A stretch of DNA of 35,082 bases from Clostridiaceae bacterium (GTDB taxonomy: Bacteria; Bacillota; Clostridia; Saccharofermentanales; UBA5734): NCBI GenBank assembly GCA_012520975.1, contig JAAYNF010000085.1:1-35082 (forward strand). The letters are read 5' to 3'. Shown one piece after another: positions 15,891 through 34,997 of the stretch (position 1 is its first letter; each line of letters opens with the position of its first letter). The position numbers and the translations under genes are program-made. The notes under the pieces are model-generated. The model was not told the DNA's origin. It did not search any database and saw only the letters and a list, made by a program, of their open reading frames with translations.

Positions 15891-15949
15891 ACAAAAAATG
15901 AATCTGCACAAATAAATATGAGCATTATGAGCACAAAGAATGGGATCAG

Positions 15950-16200
15950 TAAACTTGCCCAATGAGATCAGAGAGCCGTTGGTTGGTGTGAAACGGCGTC
16001 ACTTAAGCAGTTGAACTCGCCCAGGAGTGTATATCGCTGAAAGCGCTGTCAGTAGGTGATTTCGGAGGTCGACCGTTATAGCGACAGGATATCGGGCATA
16101 CCTGTATCCGGTGAGTGCATCGCGCAGGCGATGAAGTGGAGTGGTACCGCGGGAGGAATAGCGCCTTTCGTCTCTGACAATGAGACGAAAGGCGTTTTGT
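15950..16200 (+). promoter_or_regulatory. T-box riboswitch leader of leuA, leucine (CUC) specifier proposed at 16016-16018; approximate boundaries
   Basis: Stem I pieces agagagccgttGGTTGGTGTGAAACggc, specifier-type context ttGAACTCg, antiterminator core GTGGAGTGGTACCGCGGG (about 16136-16153), then a terminator hairpin. Confidence 0.93.
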
Positions 16201-18073: not shown

Positions 18074-18886
18074 CTATTCGGATGTTGATGGGTCGCCTAA
18101 AGTTGTTGTCGGTTTTGTTGTTGATGTTGTAGAAATTGGGATTGCTGTCGTTGTTTTTTGTCCGCCCAAGAGATCACTCAGATCTTGAATGCCTAAAATG
18201 CGATACCATTCAGATAAATTCTGAATCGGATTATAAAGCTTGGCCAATAAAATAATAACCAAAACAACAATCACAAAAAACAATAGACGGCGCAAAACAT
18301 TTTGTTGTCTTTCGGATTGGCGTTTGCGATTGACCTTGGCAACCGTGGTATACCCTTTCAGGCGATAAACCCGTTCGCGACTTCGGCGACGGATCGGTTT
18401 GCTCTTGGGTAATTTTCGCAGCACGATGCGCGCCGTTGTCTGATTAAGCAGATCGGTCGCCGGAGAAACTCGTTTTGATCTTGGCTGTGCAGGCGTCGAT
18501 TTTTTCGATTTCAACAAGGATTTTTCGCGACGTCGAGCGCGCAAGCCTTCAAGGCAGATTTTAGCGTTCCGATAAAGCTTTCGGCTCCGGCTGCTTATGC
18601 GTCTACCCAACTCCTTGGACAACTGTTTGACATTGACAGCGATTTTACGAATCATCTGCAGGATCTTTTGCATGATCTTTTGGACAGAATTGCCGATTTT
18701 ATTCATGTCGATTCGAGCGCGCAAACCTTCAAGGTAGGTTTTAGCGTTCCGATAAAGCTTTTGACTCCGGCTGCTTATACGTCTACCCAACTCCTTGGAC
18801 AACTGTTTGACATTGACGGCAATCTTGCGAACCGTCTGTATGATCTTTTGCATGATCTTTTGGGCAGAATTGCCGATTTTATCCAT
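18074..18886 (-). CDS. Hypothetical single-pass membrane protein with duplicated 60-aa basic N-terminal repeat and Thr/Ser-rich C-terminus
   Basis: Two copies of M(D/N)KIGNSxQKIMQKIxQxxRKIAVNVKQLSKELGRRISSRSxKLYRNAKxxLEGLRAR; TM segment LLFFVIVVLVIILLAKLY; tail TTTAIPISTTSTTKPTTTLGDPSTSE. Confidence 0.75.
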   Translation of the reverse strand: MDKIGNSAQKIMQKIIQTVRKIAVNVKQLSKELGRRISSRSQKLYRNAKTYLEGLRARIDMNKIGNSVQKIMQKILQMIRKIAVNVKQLSKELGRRISSRSRKLYRNAKICLEGLRARRREKSLLKSKKSTPAQPRSKRVSPATDLLNQTTARIVLRKLPKSKPIRRRSRERVYRLKGYTTVAKVNRKRQSERQQNVLRRLLFFVIVVLVIILLAKLYNPIQNLSEWYRILGIQDLSDLLGGQKTTTAIPISTTSTTKPTTTLGDPSTSE

Positions 18887-22875: not shown

Positions 22876-25511
22876 CCGGACTTCCCTCCCGTCTTTTTTG
22901 CTTTTTGATGCAGGTCGTAAAGCAGATTAAGTGCGTCCAGTGGCGTCAAAGCTTGGATATCCAGCGTTTTCAGCCGCTCAAGAATAACGTCCGTTTCCTT
23001 TTTTACCGCAGCGGTGGCAAAAAAGTCAAGCTGGCCCTCCATCGGTCGAGCCGAGCGGCGGATCGTCAACCTTTGCCTACCGACATTATCCACTTCCAAC
23101 TGTGTCAGGATTTCTCTGGCGCGAACCACGACCTCATCCGGAATACCGGCCAATCGTGCCACCTCAACACCGTAGCTCTCATCGGAACCGCCCGGTTTGA
23201 TTTTATATAGAAAGACGATTTCTCCATCAGCTTCCCCGACTTCGACATGATTGTTAAAAACACCGGGCAGGACGGATTCCAGATCGACAAGCTCATGGTA
23301 GTGAGTGGCAAACAATGTGCGACAGCCCAGATTTTGTCGATCCAAAACATACTCGATCACAGCCCAAGCTATGGAAAGTCCGTCATAGGTGCTGGTGCCG
23401 CGGCCGATCTCATCAAGGATAAGCAAACTACGGGGTGTGGCATGATCAAGAATCTGAGCCATCTCATTCATTTCAACCATAAATGTGGACTGCCCCGAGG
23501 CCAAGTCGTCCGAGGCACCGACTCTAGTGAAAATTCGGTCAACCAGACCGATCCGGGCCGCCTGGGCCGGCACAAAACTGCCTGCTTGGGCCAAAAGAAC
23601 GATTTGAGCGGTCTGTCGCATATATGTTGATTTGCCGGCCATGTTAGGACCGGTTAGAATCATAATCCGCTTTTTTTTCAAATCCATTTCCAGATCATTG
23701 GGAACGAAGCGCCCCGGTCCCAAGACCTTTTCCACAACAGGATGCCTGCCTTGGGAAATGATGATCTGTTCCGACAAATCAACTTGGGGCCGGCAATAGT
23801 TTTCCCGTTCAGCCAGTTCGGCTAAACCTGCTACAACGTCCAGCGTGGCAAGGGCTTGGGCCGAGCGTTGCAGACTTCGGATTTTCTGTCCGGCCTGCTC
23901 CCGCAGGTCGCAAAAAATCTCATATTCCATCGCTACAGCCTTTTGTTCGGCACCCAAGATCGTATCTTCCATTTCCTTGAGGGCTTGAGTGATATAGCGT
24001 TCACTGTTGGCCAAGGTTTGCTTTCGGACATAGTCTTCGGGAACCAAGGATAAATTGGCTCGGGTGACCTCAATATAGTAGCCAAACACACGATTGTAGC
24101 CGACCTTCAGACTTTTGATGCCGGTTCGTTCACGCTCGGCCGCCTCCAGTTCCAAGATCCAGTTTTTGCCATCACTGGCCGCCCGTCGAAGCAGATCCAG
24201 TTCCGGATGATATCCTTCCCGAATCAAATTGCCTTCCTTGAGCCCAATTGGCGGTTCTTCGGCCAAAGCATCCGTCAATAGCCGACAAAGTTCTGGAAGC
24301 GGGTCGATCTGACCGGCAAGTTCCAGCAGCCAAGCGTCACGCAACGGTTGTATGGTTTGCATCAGCAGTGGAAGCTTTCCCAGCGTATGAGCCAAGGCAA
24401 GCAGATCACGCGCATTGACCGAGGCCAAGGCAATTTTTCCCGCCAAACGTTCAAGATCGTAAAGGCCGTGGAGAAGTTCACGTAATTCCTGCCTGATCAT
24501 GAACTGCACCTTGAGGTCGGCAACCGCCCCTAAACGCTGCTCAATGTCATGGATGTTTAAAAGAGGCTGCTCCAGCCAACGACGCAACAAACGACCGCCC
24601 ATCGCGGTTATGGTCCGGTCGACGGCCCAAAGTAAACTGCCACGGCGACCACCGTCCCGAATGGTCTGGGTTATCTCTAGGTTGCGTCTGGCAACCGGGT
24701 CCAGATTCATAAATTCCGACAGCTGATAAGGTCTGACCGGCTTCATGTGGCCGGGCCGAACACGTTGGGTTTCTTCCAAATATATTAACAACGCAGCCGC
24801 CGCATGAGCCCAAAGAGGCGGTTGTTCATGGTCCTGCGGAATCTGCTTGTCAACAGAAGCCTCTGAAAAGTCGTCATCAGAACGTACTGTCAACATGATG
24901 TCGTATTTGCTTTTTAGGGTTTGACTGACATCGTCGGTCAAAAAAGCTGAATTGCAAATCAATTCCGAAGGAGCATAGCGGACAATCTCATCCAACAGTT
25001 TGTCGTCTGTCCGACCAACAATCAATGACGTTGCCTCGAATATGCCGGTTGTCAGATCAGCTGCCGCCAAACCATAATAGTTGTTAAGACAATAGACCGC
25101 CAACAGAAAATTGTTCCGATGATCATCCAGCATATTGCCGTCCATAACCGTACCCGGCGTGATCACCCGGACCACTTCGCGACGGACAATTCCCTTAGCC
25201 ACTGCAGGATCTTCGACTTGTTCGCAGATGGCGACCTTATAACCCTTGCCGACCAAACGATTGATATAATTATCGGCAGCATGATACGGTACACCACACA
25301 TGGGCGCTCTTTCTGCCTGACCGCAATCCCGACCGGTCAAGGTCAGTTCCAATTCCCGTGAGGCGGTTACGGCATCTTCAAAGAACATTTCATAAAAGTC
25401 ACCCAGCCGGAAGAACAAGATGCAGTCCGGCCACCGTTCCTTCTGTTCGACATATTGTTGCATCATCGGTGTTATTTTAGTCGGATCCAGGTCGCTCAGC
25501 TTCATACTCAT
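22872..25511 (-). CDS. mutS: DNA mismatch repair ATPase MutS
   Basis: TPMMQQYVEQKERWPDCILFFRLGDFYEMFFEDA; ILTGPNMAGKSTYMRQTAQIVLLAQ; LLILDEIGRGTSTYDGLSIAWAV; TLFATHYHEL. Confidence 0.98.
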   Translation of the reverse strand: MSMKLSDLDPTKITPMMQQYVEQKERWPDCILFFRLGDFYEMFFEDAVTASRELELTLTGRDCGQAERAPMCGVPYHAADNYINRLVGKGYKVAICEQVEDPAVAKGIVRREVVRVITPGTVMDGNMLDDHRNNFLLAVYCLNNYYGLAAADLTTGIFEATSLIVGRTDDKLLDEIVRYAPSELICNSAFLTDDVSQTLKSKYDIMLTVRSDDDFSEASVDKQIPQDHEQPPLWAHAAAALLIYLEETQRVRPGHMKPVRPYQLSEFMNLDPVARRNLEITQTIRDGGRRGSLLWAVDRTITAMGGRLLRRWLEQPLLNIHDIEQRLGAVADLKVQFMIRQELRELLHGLYDLERLAGKIALASVNARDLLALAHTLGKLPLLMQTIQPLRDAWLLELAGQIDPLPELCRLLTDALAEEPPIGLKEGNLIREGYHPELDLLRRAASDGKNWILELEAAERERTGIKSLKVGYNRVFGYYIEVTRANLSLVPEDYVRKQTLANSERYITQALKEMEDTILGAEQKAVAMEYEIFCDLREQAGQKIRSLQRSAQALATLDVVAGLAELAERENYCRPQVDLSEQIIISQGRHPVVEKVLGPGRFVPNDLEMDLKKKRIMILTGPNMAGKSTYMRQTAQIVLLAQAGSFVPAQAARIGLVDRIFTRVGASDDLASGQSTFMVEMNEMAQILDHATPRSLLILDEIGRGTSTYDGLSIAWAVIEYVLDRQNLGCRTLFATHYHELVDLESVLPGVFNNHVEVGEADGEIVFLYKIKPGGSDESYGVEVARLAGIPDEVVVRAREILTQLEVDNVGRQRLTIRRSARPMEGQLDFFATAAVKKETDVILERLKTLDIQALTPLDALNLLYDLHQKAKKTGGKSG

Positions 25512-26992
25512 AACAGCAGCATCTCCATCTCCCCTTCAATGGAAAATGTTTTGGCCCGGCACAAATGGACCTTTGCCAGGTGGCCTTCCAGCGCACGACC
25601 ATTCGGTTGATCATTGTTCAAACGATACGGCTCCGGTAACATATTTAAATCCGGAATGCGAAAATTAATCAATTTATTACAGGCGGTGCGACCGCTAAGA
25701 ATTGCGGCGTCGGTTTGGCTTGGACCTTCGATCAAAACCTCAACCTTCCGGCCGATCATGGCTTGATTGGATTCAAGACTGTGTCTGTTTTGTAATTCCA
25801 ACAACCGTCTGAAGCGCTCACTCATAACGGCTTCCGGAATTCGGCCGGGCATCTTGGCGGCCGGAGTGCCGGAACGCTGAGAATATTGGAATGTAAAAGC
25901 GCTGTCGAAACGGACTATATTCATCAAATCCAGCGTTTGGGCAAAATCATCTTCCTGTTCTCCTGGAAAGCCGACAATAATATCGGTGGATATCGTAAGA
26001 CCCGGCCGCAAAGCTCTTGCCCGCTGCACGATATCAATAAATTGCTCTCGGCTATAGTGTCGATTCATCCTTTCAAGAATGCGATTGCTGCCCGATTGGA
26101 TCGGCAAATGCAAATGAGATTCGATGTTTTTATACCGTGCAATGGTTTCCAGCAAACGATTGGAAATGTCCTTTGGATGGGATGTCATAAAGCGAATCCG
26201 ATAAATCCCGGTTTCGGCAACCGCCGCCAGCAACCGGGCAAAATCAGCCGGCCGATCGGATCGGTTCTCCAGATCCTTGCCGTAGGAATTAACATTTTGT
26301 CCCAACAGCATAACTTCTTGATAACCATCGGCGACCGCCGCCCTGACCTCAGCCAGAACCTCTTCCGGCTGTCGGCTGCGTTCCCTGCCACGAGTGTAAG
26401 GAACGATGCAATATGTGCAGTAATTATTACAGCCATACATAATGGAGACCAAAGCCCTGAATTTCCTTGAACGCAGGATCGGCAGGCCTTCGGCCAATGT
26501 ATCTTGATCGCCGACCGAGTAAAGTTTTTTTTGATGATACAAGCATGTATAGAGCATCTCCGGTAATTTATGGATATCCTGCGGGCCGAAAACCAAGTTG
26601 ACAAAAGGATAACTGTGTTTGATTCGCTCCACATGCGCCGATTGTTTCATCATGCAACCGCAGATGGCGATAAGCAGATCCGGATTATCTTTTTTTTGCT
26701 GTTTTAACCGGCCAAGGTTGCCAAACAATCGATTGTCGGCATTTTCTCGGACACTGCAGGTGTTTAAAATGATCAAATTAGCATCCGATAGGGTCTCCGC
26801 CGGCAAAAAACCCATCTGATGTAATTGTCCGGCTAACTTTTCACTGTCATTTTCATTTAACTGACAACCATACGTCCGAATCGAATATCGAATCACCGGA
26901 TTATCACCGGCGTTTTGACTCCTATGATCAAGACGAATCTGTTCGACAAAGTGATTTTGGCGCTCGATTTCTAAACGATCAATGATTTGCAT
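25508..26992 (-). CDS. miaB: tRNA-2-methylthio-N6-dimethylallyladenosine synthase MiaB
   Basis: YSIRTYGCQLNENDSEKLAGQL; IMYGCNNYCTYCIVPYTRGRERSR (radical SAM CxxxCxxC); C-terminal TRAM-like domain; ATGA overlap with mutS. Confidence 0.96.
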   Translation of the reverse strand: MQIIDRLEIERQNHFVEQIRLDHRSQNAGDNPVIRYSIRTYGCQLNENDSEKLAGQLHQMGFLPAETLSDANLIILNTCSVRENADNRLFGNLGRLKQQKKDNPDLLIAICGCMMKQSAHVERIKHSYPFVNLVFGPQDIHKLPEMLYTCLYHQKKLYSVGDQDTLAEGLPILRSRKFRALVSIMYGCNNYCTYCIVPYTRGRERSRQPEEVLAEVRAAVADGYQEVMLLGQNVNSYGKDLENRSDRPADFARLLAAVAETGIYRIRFMTSHPKDISNRLLETIARYKNIESHLHLPIQSGSNRILERMNRHYSREQFIDIVQRARALRPGLTISTDIIVGFPGEQEDDFAQTLDLMNIVRFDSAFTFQYSQRSGTPAAKMPGRIPEAVMSERFRRLLELQNRHSLESNQAMIGRKVEVLIEGPSQTDAAILSGRTACNKLINFRIPDLNMLPEPYRLNNDQPNGRALEGHLAKVHLCRAKTFSIEGEMEMLLL

Positions 26993-27019
26993 TCTTTTTT
27001 ATCCAGTCTTTGACGGAAA

Positions 27020-27649
27020 TTATATCACAGACAATTCGGTCGTGCCATCAGGCCCAAGCAGCCGGATCTTGTCGGTAGGTAAAATGGGATTGGCGAAAAG
27101 TCTGGCGACCAAAGATAAACGCCGGGCGGTAGCCAGAATCAACAAATTCACATCTTTCGTGGGCGAATTAAAAATCATCATGATCAGAGCATGGTTGCGA
27201 CCAGCCGGATCATGTTGATCCATCTTTTCCTGTATATCGGCAAAGGAGAGAGCTTTGCTTAGTTCCAATAAATCAGCCAATAGACCGCCGCTCAGCCTAG
27301 GAACTTGGCGTGAGTTGAGCAGGAGAATTTTTTCTATCGTCGTCAGGGGTATTGACAGCTGGCCATATTCGGTTTCCAGCAACATTTGGCTGTTGGTCAA
27401 AAACAGATTTCCCTCGGTCGCAAATGGCAACGGCACCCCTCCATAATGATAAACATGCAAGCCCCATCTGGCCTGTAGTTGACGTCCGCGACGACGCAGC
27501 ATATCGGAACGCCGCTGATTAATAAAGCCAAGAGCAAAAAGGCCGAACAACCCTCCAAAGGCCAGAGCTACGCAAACCCAAGCAGGAATCGAACCCATAA
27601 AAAACAAGGAAATCGCACAGATTATAATCAGCAAAAACGCCAACGCCAT
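27020..27649 (-). CDS. Uncharacterised protein with two N-terminal TM helices
   Basis: MALAFLLIIICAISLFFMGSIPAWVCVALAFGGLFGLFALGF followed by a soluble domain; immediately upstream of and codirectional with miaB. Confidence 0.7.
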   Translation of the reverse strand: MALAFLLIIICAISLFFMGSIPAWVCVALAFGGLFGLFALGFINQRRSDMLRRRGRQLQARWGLHVYHYGGVPLPFATEGNLFLTNSQMLLETEYGQLSIPLTTIEKILLLNSRQVPRLSGGLLADLLELSKALSFADIQEKMDQHDPAGRNHALIMMIFNSPTKDVNLLILATARRLSLVARLFANPILPTDKIRLLGPDGTTELSVI

Positions 27650-27731
27650 TATTACGCTCCAATTCGATGTTTTATACCCAAAATTCTACCATTTGTTTCA
27701 GGACTTGTAAGCCCATGTGCATACGAGACCT

Positions 27732-28562
27732 TTAGCCGGCATAAAGTTTGGCGATGATCCAGCGCGCCAATCTGACCGGCAGCAGCCTGGCAGCCAACGC
27801 GTAGAGTTTGTATATAAAGCCGCAGGTCACTTGCACAGGAGGATTTCTTCGCAGCATGTGACGAACAATGATGCGGGCAACCTGATCCGAGCTCATCCCG
27901 TTTTGTTCATCCTGCTCCATCCGCAGAAGCGACCGCTCGCATCGCAAGGAATACTCAGATTGCAATGCGCGCTGTGACACGATTCTGGCCTTTGTAAATC
28001 CTGTTTGAGTATCGCCCGGCTGAACGATCATGCAGCGTATACCGTATGGACGAACTTCGTCGTCCAGAGCCAGAGTCAGGCCTGCCAGAGCAGCCTTGCT
28101 GGCCGAGTAATATGCTTGAAACGGAATCGGCAGGAAACCGGCAACCGAACCGATATTGACAACCAGGCCGGAACGCTGCTTTCGCATTTGTTCCAGAACA
28201 ACCGGCAGCAAACTGATCGAACCAAAAAAGTTCGTTTCCATTTGGCTGCGGGCCTCCTCATGGGTTGTGTTCTCGACCGGCCCGGCGATGCCGAATCCGG
28301 CCGCCTGAACCAAGATATCAAGCCGACCCTCTTCCGCCACGATCTTTTCCACGACCCGTTTGCCTTGATCGGGGGAATGCACATCCAACCGTACCGTGCG
28401 CATCCAACGCTCCGGCGCGGTCTTGTCATTGTCAGGATCGTCAAAAAAGTCGGCCAGACTGCGTGACGCCGTGTAAACACGAATGCCGCGCCGCCCCAAT
28501 TCATAGGCGATTGACCTGCCGATCCCTGAACTACCGCCGGTAATCAGTGCGATTGGTATCAT
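27732..28562 (-). CDS. Short-chain dehydrogenase/reductase (SDR)
   Basis: IALITGGSSGIGRSIAYELGRRGIRVYTASR; VQAAGFGIAG; NIGSVAGFLPIPFQAYYSASKAALAGLTLAL (S-Y-K). RBS gggagg supports the ATG at 28562. Confidence 0.93.
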   Translation of the reverse strand: MIPIALITGGSSGIGRSIAYELGRRGIRVYTASRSLADFFDDPDNDKTAPERWMRTVRLDVHSPDQGKRVVEKIVAEEGRLDILVQAAGFGIAGPVENTTHEEARSQMETNFFGSISLLPVVLEQMRKQRSGLVVNIGSVAGFLPIPFQAYYSASKAALAGLTLALDDEVRPYGIRCMIVQPGDTQTGFTKARIVSQRALQSEYSLRCERSLLRMEQDEQNGMSSDQVARIIVRHMLRRNPPVQVTCGFIYKLYALAARLLPVRLARWIIAKLYAG

Positions 28563-28594
28563 GTTTCTTCCTCCCTGCATAACTTCCTAAAATC

Positions 28595-29491
28595 CTATTG
28601 TTTCTGTTTTTGCCCATCTGTTCCACTTTGTCCGGCATATCCTTTTTCTATACAGCGCAAAGCCCTTTCCTTGTTCCGCCCACCAAGAGCAATCTGTTGC
28701 TCGAGAAATGTCGGGTGCTCATGCAGAAAATGGTCCATGAAATCACGGGGACTGGTCATAAAGCGATCGATCATGGCAAACTGGTCGGAACTGATTTGAC
28801 CAGCATTCAGGGCCTGCACAAAAAATCGACGATCGATCTGCACCAATGCCTTTAAGATCACGTTATTTTCGGCCAGCCATTCCCGACCGCCTTGGTTGCG
28901 ATCGATGACCGTCACGGTCTGTTGCATATTCGCACCGGCACGGCGGACAGAAGGCAGCCAAACTCGTTGATAGCTGGACGCTTCGGTTACCAGATCCGCC
29001 ACGTGCAATACTTGACTGCCGGTCAGGACTCCCGCATCGACCAAAAGATTCTTGGTAAAATGATCTTGACTGAGAATCATTGTGCCATTTTTCAAGATGC
29101 TCAAATGAGGTTTGCCCAACAAATTGGCAACCTGGACGGAAAAAAAGAAATCCCGGCGCTCACCGCCGGAGACAATATCAAATGAGTCGGCCGGATAAGA
29201 TCGAGCCAGCAGATCGCAGACTCTTTTAAAGGCCGGAACATGGTTGTATTGTTTTGTGACGGCTAAGCTTATTTGCGGTGGTAAAAAAAGCGGTTCATCC
29301 GCCAGCGATTCAATCAACGCCAGCAGATCATTGGCACTGGTTTCGCTGCCATACAAGAAATGTGTATTGATGTAATATGGCCCCAGCGTCCCCGATGTAT
29401 ACCAAAAAGGCTGACCAGGTGGACAGACTCGGATTGCCTGAGTCTCAAACAACCACCGAATGATTGATTTTTGGTCGGTCACGAAAAACAC
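28595..29491 (-). CDS. Divergent orotate phosphoribosyltransferase-like protein with C-terminal extension (start may be the GTG at 29482)
   Basis: YTSGTLGPYYINTHFLYG, DIVSGGERRDFFFSVQVANLLGKPHLSI, VLHVADLVTEASSY, VTVIDRNQGGREWLAENNVILKALV align in order with PyrE-type PRTases; sits directly downstream of pyrD. Confidence 0.7.
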   Translation of the reverse strand: MFFVTDQKSIIRWLFETQAIRVCPPGQPFWYTSGTLGPYYINTHFLYGSETSANDLLALIESLADEPLFLPPQISLAVTKQYNHVPAFKRVCDLLARSYPADSFDIVSGGERRDFFFSVQVANLLGKPHLSILKNGTMILSQDHFTKNLLVDAGVLTGSQVLHVADLVTEASSYQRVWLPSVRRAGANMQQTVTVIDRNQGGREWLAENNVILKALVQIDRRFFVQALNAGQISSDQFAMIDRFMTSPRDFMDHFLHEHPTFLEQQIALGGRNKERALRCIEKGYAGQSGTDGQKQKQ

Positions 29492-29527: not shown

Positions 29528-30445
29528 TCAGCCATTCCACAATTCCAACGTACCTGTGTACTGACCGACCTCGGAGACACCGTCCAGCTCCATGATCGCC
29601 CGAATTTCATCTATGATGTCTTGACATGCAGTCGGCTTGATGAGATTTGCTGTGCCGACCTCAACGGCGGTAGCGCCGGCAATCATAAATTCCAACACAT
29701 CATTGCCGCTCATAATGCCACCCACGCCGACAATGGGGATACTGACCGCTCGGTAAGTTTCGGCAACCATCCGCAAAGCGATCGGTTTGATCGCGGGACC
29801 TGACAAACCACCGATGTTGTTGCGCAGGATCGGCCGACGCAGTTTTCGATCAATCGCTATCCCCAGCAACGTGTTAATCAACACAACGGCGTCAGCGCCC
29901 CCGGACTCAGCTGCTCTGGCCATATCAGCAATGGAGGTTACATTTGGTGTCAATTTTGCCCATAGGGGTTTCTTGGTCACTTGCCGGGCGGCGGCCACCA
30001 GCTTTTCGATCATTTCCGGATTGCTTCCGATCAGCATACAACCTTCCTTAACATTTGGGCAGGATAAATTCAACTCGATGGCGTCGACCGACGTTGCATC
30101 CAAACGACGACACATTTCCAGATATTCCTCGGGATCGTTGCCGGCGATATTGACGATAATTCGGCAGCCCAAATCGATCATAAAGGGTAATTCATTCGCC
30201 AAAAATGAGGTGAAACCGGGATTTTGCAGACCGACACTGTTCAACATACCACTTGCCGTTTCGGCCACGCGAGGCGCGGGATTACCATCTCTGGGCAACA
30301 AGGTCAGACCTTTGGAACAAATTCCGCCGATTCGGCCAAGGTTCTGAAAATTCCGCATCTCGCGTCCGAAACCAAACGTGCCGGAAGCCGCAATTACCGG
30401 ATTGGCAAACGGAATATTGCCTACGCAAACCGTTAAATCTGCCAT
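29528..30445 (-). CDS. pyrD: Dihydroorotate dehydrogenase, NAD-type catalytic subunit (PyrDB)
   Basis: GNIPFANPVIAASGTFGFGREM; VNIAGNDPEEYLEMCRRL; IELNLSCPNVKEGCM; KPLWAKLTPNVTSIADMARA; GVGGIMSGNDVLEFMIAGATAVEVGTAN. Confidence 0.96.
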   Translation of the reverse strand: MADLTVCVGNIPFANPVIAASGTFGFGREMRNFQNLGRIGGICSKGLTLLPRDGNPAPRVAETASGMLNSVGLQNPGFTSFLANELPFMIDLGCRIIVNIAGNDPEEYLEMCRRLDATSVDAIELNLSCPNVKEGCMLIGSNPEMIEKLVAAARQVTKKPLWAKLTPNVTSIADMARAAESGGADAVVLINTLLGIAIDRKLRRPILRNNIGGLSGPAIKPIALRMVAETYRAVSIPIVGVGGIMSGNDVLEFMIAGATAVEVGTANLIKPTACQDIIDEIRAIMELDGVSEVGQYTGTLELWNG

Positions 30446-31236
30446 TCAACCACCTCCGCATTGAAAACCGGTCCTTCGGTACAGCAACGCTGATATTCGG
30501 CTCCTTGCTCATCACCACGTTTGATCTTGCAGGCACAAACCAGACACACCCCAATGCCGCAAGCCATACGTTCTTCCAAGGAAACTTGACACGAAATGCC
30601 GTATTCATCAGCCAGTGCGGCAACAGATGCCATCATTTTTTCCGGTCCGCAGGTCAAAATCCGTGTTTCCGGAACCAACGGCAGTTTCGCAAGCAGATCG
30701 TCAAGCGCCGCCACGGCGTGACCGGAAAAATCCATATCGTCGCCCTCTTCTGAAGCAAATAATGTTTGGCAGGTCAACGCTTTATATTGATCGGTCAGAA
30801 AACTGTCGCCTAGGGACCGGTAACCGCAAACCGCAATCCCCTCGAGATCGCGAGCCTGACAAACTTTTTGGACAAAATACAGAGGAAAAACACCGGTTCC
30901 GCCACCTACGGTAATGACCCGGCGAGCGCCTTCCAGATTAAAGCCTCGGCCAAGAGGACCCAAAAGGGATAAGATGTCGCCTTTTTTTCGCTTGGCGAGA
31001 AAGCGGGTGCCCTCTCCCGCTATCCGTATGCCCAACTGGATACTGCCTCTTGCCGGATCGGCATTCATAATGCCGATGGGCCGGCGGAGAAACTGATTGC
31101 TGGTCAGGTTGACAAATTGACCCGGATAGGCGATTTGAGCGATAGCCGGAGCCTCTAGGGTCAGAACCACCGTCTGGCCGTTTATGCTTTCATGATCAAT
31201 AATCGGACAGTTGAACTCAATTGTTCGCATTTTCAA
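30433..31236 (-). CDS. pyrK: Dihydroorotate dehydrogenase electron-transfer subunit PyrK (FAD/2Fe-2S)
   Basis: PGQFVNLTSNQFLRRPIGI; TVGGGTGVFPLYF; CGPEKMM; 2Fe-2S motif ERMACGIGVCLVCACK...CC. Confidence 0.95.
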   Translation of the reverse strand: MKMRTIEFNCPIIDHESINGQTVVLTLEAPAIAQIAYPGQFVNLTSNQFLRRPIGIMNADPARGSIQLGIRIAGEGTRFLAKRKKGDILSLLGPLGRGFNLEGARRVITVGGGTGVFPLYFVQKVCQARDLEGIAVCGYRSLGDSFLTDQYKALTCQTLFASEEGDDMDFSGHAVAALDDLLAKLPLVPETRILTCGPEKMMASVAALADEYGISCQVSLEERMACGIGVCLVCACKIKRGDEQGAEYQRCCTEGPVFNAEVVEWQI

Positions 31237-31254: not shown

Positions 31255-32196
31255 TCATTTTGCTCTTTTTTCTAGGGCCTGTCGCAATTTTGCTTTCATC
31301 AACAGGGCTTCTCGCCTGGCGGCTATGGCAAATTCTCCATGAGCCATTTGTTGCGTCTTCCAGGCCAGCATGATGCTGCGGGACGCATTAACAATGGCTC
31401 CGCGACCATCCGAACTAAAACTGCTGATCGCATCATCGGCGCTTGCTCCTTGCGCGCCATAACCGGGCACGAGAATAAAAGACTTCGGCATCAACTTGCG
31501 AAGTTTGGCTGCCTGAAGCGGCCATGTGGCTCCAACCACGGCTCCGACCGACGAGTAACCGCATGCGCCGATCAAATCATCGCCCCACTCTGCTACTTTT
31601 GCCGCCATGGCCTCATAAACAGTCCTGCCGTCCGAAAGGATTAAATCCTGTACATCCCCTGCGGATGGATTGGAAGTGCGTACCAAAACAAAAATGCCTT
31701 TCCCTTTTTTCCGGCAGACCGCAATAAAGGGTTTGATCCCGTCCAGACCAAGATAGGCGTTAACGGTCAGGGCATCCGCGTCAAACATCGGAGCGGAGCT
31801 GTCGTCGGGCAAAAGATTTTCGCCAAGCCAAGCTGAGGCATAAGCATCGGCGGTACTGCCGATGTCGTTCCGTTTACCATCGGCAATCACCAGCATACCC
31901 GCCTTACCGGCATACTGTATGGTCCGTTGCAAAGCTCTCATACCGTGGGAACCGTATTTTTCATAATAGGCAAGCTGCGGCTTAACTGCCGGAACGATAT
32001 CGGCTACATGATCAATTAAACGTTTGTTGAATTCGTAGATCGCCAAGCTGGCGGACAAAACAGGATCATCACATTGTTTGCCGAAATAGTCCACGATATC
32101 TTGAGGAATATATTCCAGTACCGGATCCAATCCGATCACAGTCGGATTGCCGGTCTGGCTAATCTTCTGTTCCAACCGATCTGCGAAATTATTCAT
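31255..32196 (-). CDS. pyrF: Orotidine 5'-phosphate decarboxylase (type 2)
   Basis: NPTVIGLDPVLEYIP; VKPQLAYYEKYGSHGMRALQRTI; VIADGKRNDIGSTADAYASAWLG; LVPGYGAQGASADD. Confidence 0.95.
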   Translation of the reverse strand: MNNFADRLEQKISQTGNPTVIGLDPVLEYIPQDIVDYFGKQCDDPVLSASLAIYEFNKRLIDHVADIVPAVKPQLAYYEKYGSHGMRALQRTIQYAGKAGMLVIADGKRNDIGSTADAYASAWLGENLLPDDSSAPMFDADALTVNAYLGLDGIKPFIAVCRKKGKGIFVLVRTSNPSAGDVQDLILSDGRTVYEAMAAKVAEWGDDLIGACGYSSVGAVVGATWPLQAAKLRKLMPKSFILVPGYGAQGASADDAISSFSSDGRGAIVNASRSIMLAWKTQQMAHGEFAIAARREALLMKAKLRQALEKRAK

Positions 32197-33451
32197 AGGT
32201 AACCCTCCCGTCGCAAATGGTCAGTTGTACCTGTCCGTATAACTCCCACCCGTGAAAAGGCGTATTTCGCGCCTTGGACAGCATGGCGTCGCGATCGAAA
32301 ATAAAAGGATTTTCTAGATCTACCAGGACAAGATCCGCCGGCCGGCCGGGTGTCAGAGTACCTAAATCCGGTTGCAGCAGCTTGGCCGGATTGGTCGTCA
32401 TCGTCGCCAGCCACTGTGGCAATGTTAAAAAACCGGTTCGGACCAAAAAAGTGTATCCGAGCGCCAACGCCGTTTCAAAGCCAACAATGCCGTTGTTGGC
32501 TAAACCGAACTCCAGATCTTTTTCGTCCGAATGGTGAGGCGCATGGTCAGTGGCGATCATGTCAATGGTTCCATCCTGCAGGCCTTTGATAATGGCGTCA
32601 ACATCCTCTTGGGCGCGAAGTGGCGGATTCATTTTGGCATTGGTATCAAAACCTTGGCAGGCCTGATCGGTCAAGGTAAAATAATGCGGGCAGGTTTCAG
32701 CGCTGACCTGCACTCCCCTTGCCTTGGCGGCCCGAATCAAATCTACCGAGGCTCGGGTACTGACATGGGCGATATGGACAGGTAATTCCAAATACTCGGA
32801 CAACAGGCATTCTCGAGCAACCATCATGGATTCCGATACCGTTGGAATGCCACGAAGTCCTAATGTCGTTGACCAGAGACCTTCATTCATGTGCCCGCCC
32901 TCAGCCAATGACAGGTCTTCGCAATGCGAAATGACGGTCAGACCGAAGTGGTTGGCATAGAGCATGCCTTTTCGCATGATATCTGCCCGCTCAACCGGTC
33001 GCCCATCATCCGAAACGGCAACAATCCCTTCGGCGGCCATCAGTCCTATTTCCGCCAGCTCCAGTCCTTTTTGCTCCTTGCTTAGTGCCCCGATCGGTAA
33101 TACACGGGCATAACCTTCTTTTGCGCTCTTTTCTTTGATGAATCTTACCAAGGCCGCATGATCACAGACCGGTACGGTGTTCGGCATGCAGGCGACGGTG
33201 GTAAAGCCCCCCTTGGCTGCGCTTTTTGTTCCGCTGACAATGTCTTCACGATATTCATGTCCCGGTTCACGCAAATGGCAATGCGCATCGATCAGGCCCG
33301 GGAAAACGGCCAGTCCGGTTGCATCGATGATCCGGTCCGGCTGTTCCTCAAATCCATCACTGATTAAGCCGTGTTCAATATACACCGGCCGTACACCGGT
33401 AAAACCGGTGGCCGGGTCGACAACATGACCGTTTTCAACGACCATCCTCAT
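32189..33451 (-). CDS. pyrC: Dihydroorotase
   Basis: VFPGLIDAHCHLREPGHEYREDIVSGTKSAAKGGFTTVACMPNT; IAHVSTRASVDLIR; ATDHAPHHSDEKDLEF. Confidence 0.96.
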   Translation of the reverse strand: MRMVVENGHVVDPATGFTGVRPVYIEHGLISDGFEEQPDRIIDATGLAVFPGLIDAHCHLREPGHEYREDIVSGTKSAAKGGFTTVACMPNTVPVCDHAALVRFIKEKSAKEGYARVLPIGALSKEQKGLELAEIGLMAAEGIVAVSDDGRPVERADIMRKGMLYANHFGLTVISHCEDLSLAEGGHMNEGLWSTTLGLRGIPTVSESMMVARECLLSEYLELPVHIAHVSTRASVDLIRAAKARGVQVSAETCPHYFTLTDQACQGFDTNAKMNPPLRAQEDVDAIIKGLQDGTIDMIATDHAPHHSDEKDLEFGLANNGIVGFETALALGYTFLVRTGFLTLPQWLATMTTNPAKLLQPDLGTLTPGRPADLVLVDLENPFIFDRDAMLSKARNTPFHGWELYGQVQLTICDGRVTYE

Positions 33452-34377
33452 CCTACGTTCCTCCTGGCTTGCAATAGATACATGATGGCCATGCGAACAG
33501 CCACTCCGTTGGTCACCTGTTCATTGATTACCGATTGCGAGCTGTCATAAATATGTGTTGGCATCTCGACACCGTGATTGCATGGGCCAGGATGCATAAT
33601 AATGGCGTCAGGTTTGGCGCTGCGGATAGCGTCGTCATCCAGCGCAAAAAAACGAGCATACTCACTGATTGAAGGAAACATGGCTGTGCGCATCCGCTCC
33701 AGCTGGATTCGAAGCGCCATGATAACATCCGCGCCTTGCACCGCGTCCCGGACAGAGGGGCAGACAACGGCACCCATTTCGGCAAGACCTACCGGCATCA
33801 TGGTCGGCGGAGCTGCCAAACGTACCTCGGCGCCTAATTTAATCAGTCCCCACAAATTGCTGCGGGCAACCCGGCTGTGCAGGACATCACCGATAATGGC
33901 CACCCGCAGGCCTTTGATTCCACCCTTCTTCTGACGCATGGTGAAAAAGTCAAGCAACGCCTGCGTGGGATGCTCGTTCATACCGTCGCCGGCATTGATC
34001 ACAGAGGCTTTGACGCGGGGCGCGATCAGGTGAGGCGCGCCGGATTCTCCGTGCCGCATGATCAAAATATCCGTCGCCATCATATCGATGGTCCTGGCAG
34101 TGTCCACCAAAGACTCGCCTTTGTTGACGCTGCTGCTGGATGTTGCAATGTTGGCCGACGCGGCGCTCATGAATTTACTGGCCATTTCAAAGGACAGTCG
34201 CGTTCGGGTGCTGTTTTCATAAAACAACGTGACAATTGATTTGCCTTGTAAATGCGCGGTCCTTTTACTATTTGCCTGCAAAACCATCTTCATTGTTTCG
34301 GCGGTATCCAGAATCAGATTGATTTCATCTACGGTCAATTGCTGGATTCCTAGAAGATCTTTATGGATAAGCTGCAT
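33448..34377 (-). CDS. pyrB: Aspartate carbamoyltransferase catalytic subunit
   Basis: VTLFYENSTRTRLSFEMASKFM; INAGDGMNEHPTQALLDFFTM; IIGDVLHSRVARSN; MHPGPCNHGVEMP. Confidence 0.96.
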   Translation of the reverse strand: MQLIHKDLLGIQQLTVDEINLILDTAETMKMVLQANSKRTAHLQGKSIVTLFYENSTRTRLSFEMASKFMSAASANIATSSSSVNKGESLVDTARTIDMMATDILIMRHGESGAPHLIAPRVKASVINAGDGMNEHPTQALLDFFTMRQKKGGIKGLRVAIIGDVLHSRVARSNLWGLIKLGAEVRLAAPPTMMPVGLAEMGAVVCPSVRDAVQGADVIMALRIQLERMRTAMFPSISEYARFFALDDDAIRSAKPDAIIMHPGPCNHGVEMPTHIYDSSQSVINEQVTNGVAVRMAIMYLLQARRNVG

Positions 34378-34382
34378 ATGGA

Positions 34383-34997
<615 letters not shown>

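Follow-up and report, generated by a model that had tools for sequence, protein, structure and literature searches.

A diverged protein family at the end of a clostridial pyr operon very probably takes the place of canonical PyrE

Orotate phosphoribosyltransferase (OPRT) catalyses a step that de novo pyrimidine synthesis cannot do without, and 5-FOA/pyrE genetics rests on this enzyme. The window, by which we mean the whole stretch of 35,082 nucleotides analysed here, carries a clostridial pyr operon with no canonical pyrE, which raises the question of what supplies this step. The operon lies on the minus strand, and NCBIfam confirmed the order pyrR-pyrB-pyrC-pyrF-pyrK-pyrD that had been read from the sequence. 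The genes pyrR (34383-34988; NF003549, 247 bits), pyrB for aspartate carbamoyltransferase (33448-34386; TIGR00670, 309 bits), pyrC for dihydroorotase (32189-33451; TIGR00857, 375 bits), pyrF for type 2 OMP decarboxylase (31255-32196; TIGR02127, 285 bits) and pyrD for dihydroorotate dehydrogenase of the PyrDB type (29528-30445; TIGR01037, 341 bits) all scored over the cut-offs of their models. The best match of pyrK (30433-31236), encoding the dihydroorotate dehydrogenase electron-transfer subunit, was NF000799, under its cut-off.

The next gene on the same strand, at 28595-29491, follows the end of pyrD after 36 nt and is the PyrE-like gene studied here; it is codirectional with the operon, as the first-pass annotation had stated. 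It has 298 codons from the first GTG (29491) to the stop at 28595. The real start is probably the second GTG (29482; MTDQKSII...), since AGAGG precedes it by 8 nt, and the protein would then have about 295 aa. The absence of a canonical pyrE from the window was extended by a profile search to the rest of the 96%-complete assembly, where the best matches to PyrE models were APRT (C73), a ComF-like protein (C11), PyrR and a PRPP-synthetase-like protein. Searches of plasmids, phages and PHROGs gave zero matches that would point to a mobile or phage origin of the PyrE-like gene.

Curated models hardly recognise the protein. It scored 29.2 bits against TIGR00336 (cut-off 106.8) and 47.3 bits against the NF001729 PyrE model (cut-off 245) in NCBIfam, and no PyrR model was among its NCBIfam matches. 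Apart from a sub-threshold Xin repeat, no Pfam family matched it, Pribosyltran (PF00156) included. The protein is 85% identical to that of a sister genome, with about 40-54% identity across its family. All 49 family members scanned matched NF001729 weakly, the best E-value to the canonical models (TIGR00336/NF001729) being 2.4e-16; none reached the gathering score of PF00156, and Pfam gave one spurious match among the 49.

More sensitive comparisons placed the protein with OPRTs. A profile search of the PDB found human OPRT (2wns, 4e-9) and Burkholderia OPRT (4ohc, 9e-9), with APRTs just behind, and profile-profile alignment (hhalign) with three canonical PyrE proteins including that of E. coli covered residues 5-250 with E 1e-13. 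The AlphaFold model was confident (pLDDT 92.2, pTM 0.87). Foldseek with this model, a structural comparison with PyrE of the kind suggested at first reading, returned only OPRT or UMP synthase among the top 17 PDB chains, beginning with 4ohc and 9e5g (4ohc E 1e-13). The protein thus has a type I PRT fold whose nearest structures are OPRTs.

The motifs quoted in the first-pass annotation are present, and alignment of the window protein with 48 named relatives gave about 40 invariant positions. Among them are most positions of PFWYTSG.GP..NTHF, GG.RRD.FFS, H129, K134, H163, D166, R198, Q200, G202, R276 and A277. The N-terminal motif on the hood or orotate side, PFWYTSGTLGPYYINTHF (residues 28-45, 29357-29410), contains invariant F29, W30, Y31, S33, G34, G37, P38, N42, T43 and H44, and its T32 occupies the position of E. 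coli PyrE K26. The PPi-side loop SGGERRDFFFS (residues 108-118, 29138-29170) has invariant G109, G110, R112, R113, D114, F116, F117 and S118, with R113 falling on the E. coli K73 position. In the DRxQGG motif (residues 197-202, 28886-28903), R198, Q200 and G202 are invariant; R198 aligns with Arg156 of E. coli and Salmonella PyrE, which binds orotate. Motif order, pathway position and fold are those of canonical PyrE (TIGR00336 and the PRK00455-type NF001729), as are the Lys, Asp and Arg at the K100, D125 and R156 positions.

The same alignments show where the family departs from canonical PyrE. Invariant K134, at the E. coli K100 position, precedes the catalytic (flexible) loop region (residues 135-157, 29021-29089), in which family alignment and hhalign found no conserved Lys or His of a K-x-H-G loop (E. 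coli K103, H105). Some relatives carry extra residues inserted exactly at this position; four members (L167, L168, L169 and L170) have inserts of tens of residues. The PRPP-binding loop HVADLVTEASSY (residues 163-174, 28970-29005) deviates from the motif hhhhDDxxTxG, reading HIADLVTEASSY with the second Asp alone kept: D166, equivalent to E. coli D125, is invariant, while the first is A165, Ala in nearly all members. T169-E170 of this loop is not strictly invariant, one locus (L150) reading LINVASSY. The family alignment therefore has no counterparts of E. coli K103, H105 and D124. The altered PRPP loop and the missing K-x-H-G had been noticed at first reading and taken as degeneracy of this protein; both observations stand, but they are conserved traits of the whole family and not decay of one copy.

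Two further segments are absent from canonical PyrE. A helical insertion of approximately 25 residues lies at about 62-86 (29234-29308), seen as an hhalign gap and as a helix at 67-84 in the AlphaFold model. The helical C-terminal extension (residues ~251-288, 28628-28741) is partly conserved, with F255, P260, R276 and A277. The extra tail had been put at roughly 80 aa; aligned to canonical PyrE from residue ~251 it is about 45 aa, the insertion of ~25 aa lying elsewhere.

The best fold match, Burkholderia cenocepacia OPRT (4OHC, 9E5G), is about 19% identical. Like the family, it has no His in the catalytic loop (KKPKGFGRNAQIEG); its PRPP loop (VEDLTTDSRSK) is related, and the FxxTSG motif is shared. 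It is a shorter protein, however, whose PRPP motif retains E-D, and it has neither the conserved SGGERRDFFFS nor the tail. Thermus-type PyrE (TIGR01367) is another non-classical OPRT type, of about 200 aa and with different motifs; 13 of the 49 family members matched this model, weakly. PyrR and APRT have the same type I PRT fold and are distinct families, both separately present in the source genome.

The distribution of the family was determined in an order sample of 118 genomes and in a class sample, the latter consisting of 196 genomes that are at least 90% complete. In the order sample the family was present in 84 genomes, all of which had PyrD over cut-off, and in none of the 29 genomes without such PyrD (Fisher p 9e-23). 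Canonical PyrE over cut-off was found in three genomes of this sample and a shorter PyrE type (77 bits) in one more (G019), which by eye appears to be Thermus-type; none of these four carries the family. In the class sample, where canonical PyrE was counted at E <= 1e-15, 29 genomes had the family, 144 had canonical PyrE and none had both (Fisher p 9e-21). The genome samples are phylogenetically structured, so both p-values overstate independence; the exclusion was seen repeatedly within several taxonomic families, and in genus g13 some members have the family form and others canonical PyrE. By its co-occurrence with the pathway and its exclusion of PyrE, the family behaves as a genetic replacement of PyrE.

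The exceptions are few. Five order-sample genomes have PyrD and no family member, and three of these (G017, G004, G019) have another PyrE type. In G022 pyrD lies on a 4.4-kb contig, and the absence is possibly an assembly gap; in G111 neither the family nor another PyrE type accounts for the gap. G018 is not among the five, its pyrD being cut by a contig end and scoring under the cut-off. Among the 169 class-sample genomes with PyrB, 26 had the family, 140 had PyrE and three (G201, G232, G269) had neither, which speaks against the OPRT reading. Only three carriers were added by a phylum sample of 399 genomes, among whose matched members the class is thinly represented; all three belong to one taxonomic family. 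Most carriers known from these samples are clostridial.

The gene neighbourhood gave a similar picture. Of 80 named loci, 75 have a codirectional pyrD upstream of the gene; in 58 cases it is no more than 130 bp away, and the full pyrRBCFKD order was found at 41. Two small genomes without a PyrB match, G222 (L150) and G278 (L151), have the PyrE-like gene opposite pyrF-pyrK-pyrD; pyrD of G222 appears frameshifted. Such a module might be able to make UMP from dihydroorotate or orotate, and these organisms possibly grow on imported dihydroorotate or orotate. The arrangement links the gene to the last steps of UMP formation rather than to PyrR regulation.

A link to experimental genetics came from the genus of Acetivibrio mesophilus, in which all six genomes have the family and none has PyrE over cut-off; in one (G313) the gene is apparently split by a frameshift. 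Another of them (G314) is presumably Acetivibrio (Clostridium) thermocellus ATCC 27405, an assignment of ours that draws on its size, its scaffoldin and its pyr gene order. It contains a CipA-like scaffoldin frame of 1853 codons with nine strong cohesins, resembling PDB 1aoh. In this genome the PyrE-like gene lies outside the pyr operon and adjoins miaB, and with no other PyrE-like gene over cut-off, the family member was the only OPRT-like candidate found. 5-FOA passes OPRT before PyrF. The pyr gene order of G314 agrees with Cthe_0949-0954 (PMC3478167), and a pyrF deletion makes C. thermocellum a uracil auxotroph resistant to 5-FOA, both traits being restored by pyrF (PMC5779722; also PMC5429504). 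Because 5-FOA sensitivity depends on pyrF in this way, an OPRT must work in C. thermocellum.

The homology and fold are those of OPRTs, the residues on the PRPP and orotate sides are conserved, and the gene stands at the operon end, co-occurs with PyrD and excludes PyrE. We consider it very probable from these comparisons that the gene encodes the OPRT of the organism and belongs to a diverged family replacing canonical PyrE in many Clostridia. Its enzymatic activity and way of working we infer as follows. The protein would convert orotate and PRPP to OMP and PPi, linking the reactions of PyrD and PyrF. PRPP-Mg and orotate are probably bound by invariant K134, R112/R113, D166 and R198 together with the T169 region. 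In canonical PyrE the K-x-H-G loop closes over the active site of the neighbouring subunit. Since its position is taken here by a stretch without conserved residues, the leaving pyrophosphate would probably be stabilised by invariant residues elsewhere in the protein, for example R112/R113, H44, H129, H163 or R276 of the tail.

Several residues argue against the OPRT reading. In E. coli PyrE, K103 is essential, its acetylation lowering kcat 150-300 fold, and K26 matters too (PMC10087573); neither has a counterpart in the family. The loss of K26 is not disqualifying, because the position is Ala in canonical clostridial PyrE of the same order and Thr in 4ohc. The lost first Asp of the PRPP motif and the imperfect conservation of T169-E170 also weigh against OPRT activity. 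The first-pass annotation had left the choice between a divergent active OPRT and a non-catalytic orotate/PRPP sensor. Such a sensor would regulate the pathway or its operon, and the OPRT reaction would fall to a different protein that has gone unrecognised. The lost catalytic-loop Lys and His and the lost first Asp would fit this, but no sampled carrier has canonical PyrE, so that an otherwise complete pyr pathway would lack any OPRT, which makes a sensor very unlikely. Moreover, the operon already has PyrR, in the genomes lacking PyrB the gene stays with pyrF, pyrK and pyrD alone, and the putative A. thermocellus genome has no other PyrE-like gene over cut-off, yet C. thermocellum shows the PyrF- and 5-FOA-dependent phenotypes (PMC5779722). 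The divergent active OPRT is thus the half of the earlier proposal that received strong support, from PyrE exclusion, PyrD co-occurrence, operon position, fold and A. thermocellus.

Weak matches to APRT models and APRT structures beside the OPRT ones could point to a PRT of other or broader base specificity, for example for orotate and another pyrimidine or purine, that was recruited to the pyr operon. OPRTs outrank APRTs in both structure and profile searches, however, the source genome has its own APRT, and the phyletic pattern tracks PyrD and excludes PyrE, so that we give this reading even less credit than a sensor. A decaying pyrE pseudogene, to which the low similarity to PyrE models might point, was rejected as next to impossible: the ORF is intact, the identity to the sister genome is 85%, and some 40 positions are invariant across the family.

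Beyond the function of the single gene, it seems somewhat more probable than otherwise that the family forms a further major class of bacterial OPRT. In this class the K-x-H-G lid would have given way to another means of transition-state stabilisation, in which invariant residues of the NTH motif, the SGGERRD loop or the C-terminal extension, or of several of these, take part. The class, which curated models miss, would be the only OPRT of a large share of the Clostridia. No relevant description of an alternative PyrE or a missing pyrE in Clostridia was found in the open-access literature, which is weak evidence, and some members may already be named OPRT by automatic annotation elsewhere. A family not recognised by Pfam and NCBIfam could make many Clostridia look pyrimidine-auxotrophic in genome-based metabolic predictions. 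It also poses the mechanistic question of how an OPRT would work without the catalytic-loop Lys and His, and in cellulolytic Clostridia the gene would give a pyrE-like selection marker.

Some other features of the window were observed. An SDR oxidoreductase gene (checked with NCBIfam) starts 14 nt past the stop of the PyrE-like gene, and beyond it lie a 209-aa ORF, miaB (by NCBIfam) and, by reading, mutS, mutL, miaA, hfq and lexA. The 209-aa ORF (27023-27649, minus strand), between miaB and the SDR gene, has membrane segments at its N-terminus and matched nothing in NCBIfam. In the window (25508-29491), as in the putative A. thermocellus genome (L165), miaB is near the PyrE-like gene, which suggests an older neighbourhood. 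The true start of pyrR is probably an internal ATG near 34934, and just upstream of it a strong terminator-like hairpin (34961-34986, minus strand) has 11 pairs and a T run. Judged from its sequence and position, it could be a PyrR attenuator terminator; no Rfam PyrR element was found in the window. The only Rfam match in the window is a T-box leader (RF00230, 108.9 bits) at 15927-16178 on the plus strand. Divergent from lexA, a 270-aa ORF (18074-18886, minus strand) has an internal duplication, with KIGNSxQKIMQKI...KLYRNAK occurring twice, and a C-terminal membrane segment.
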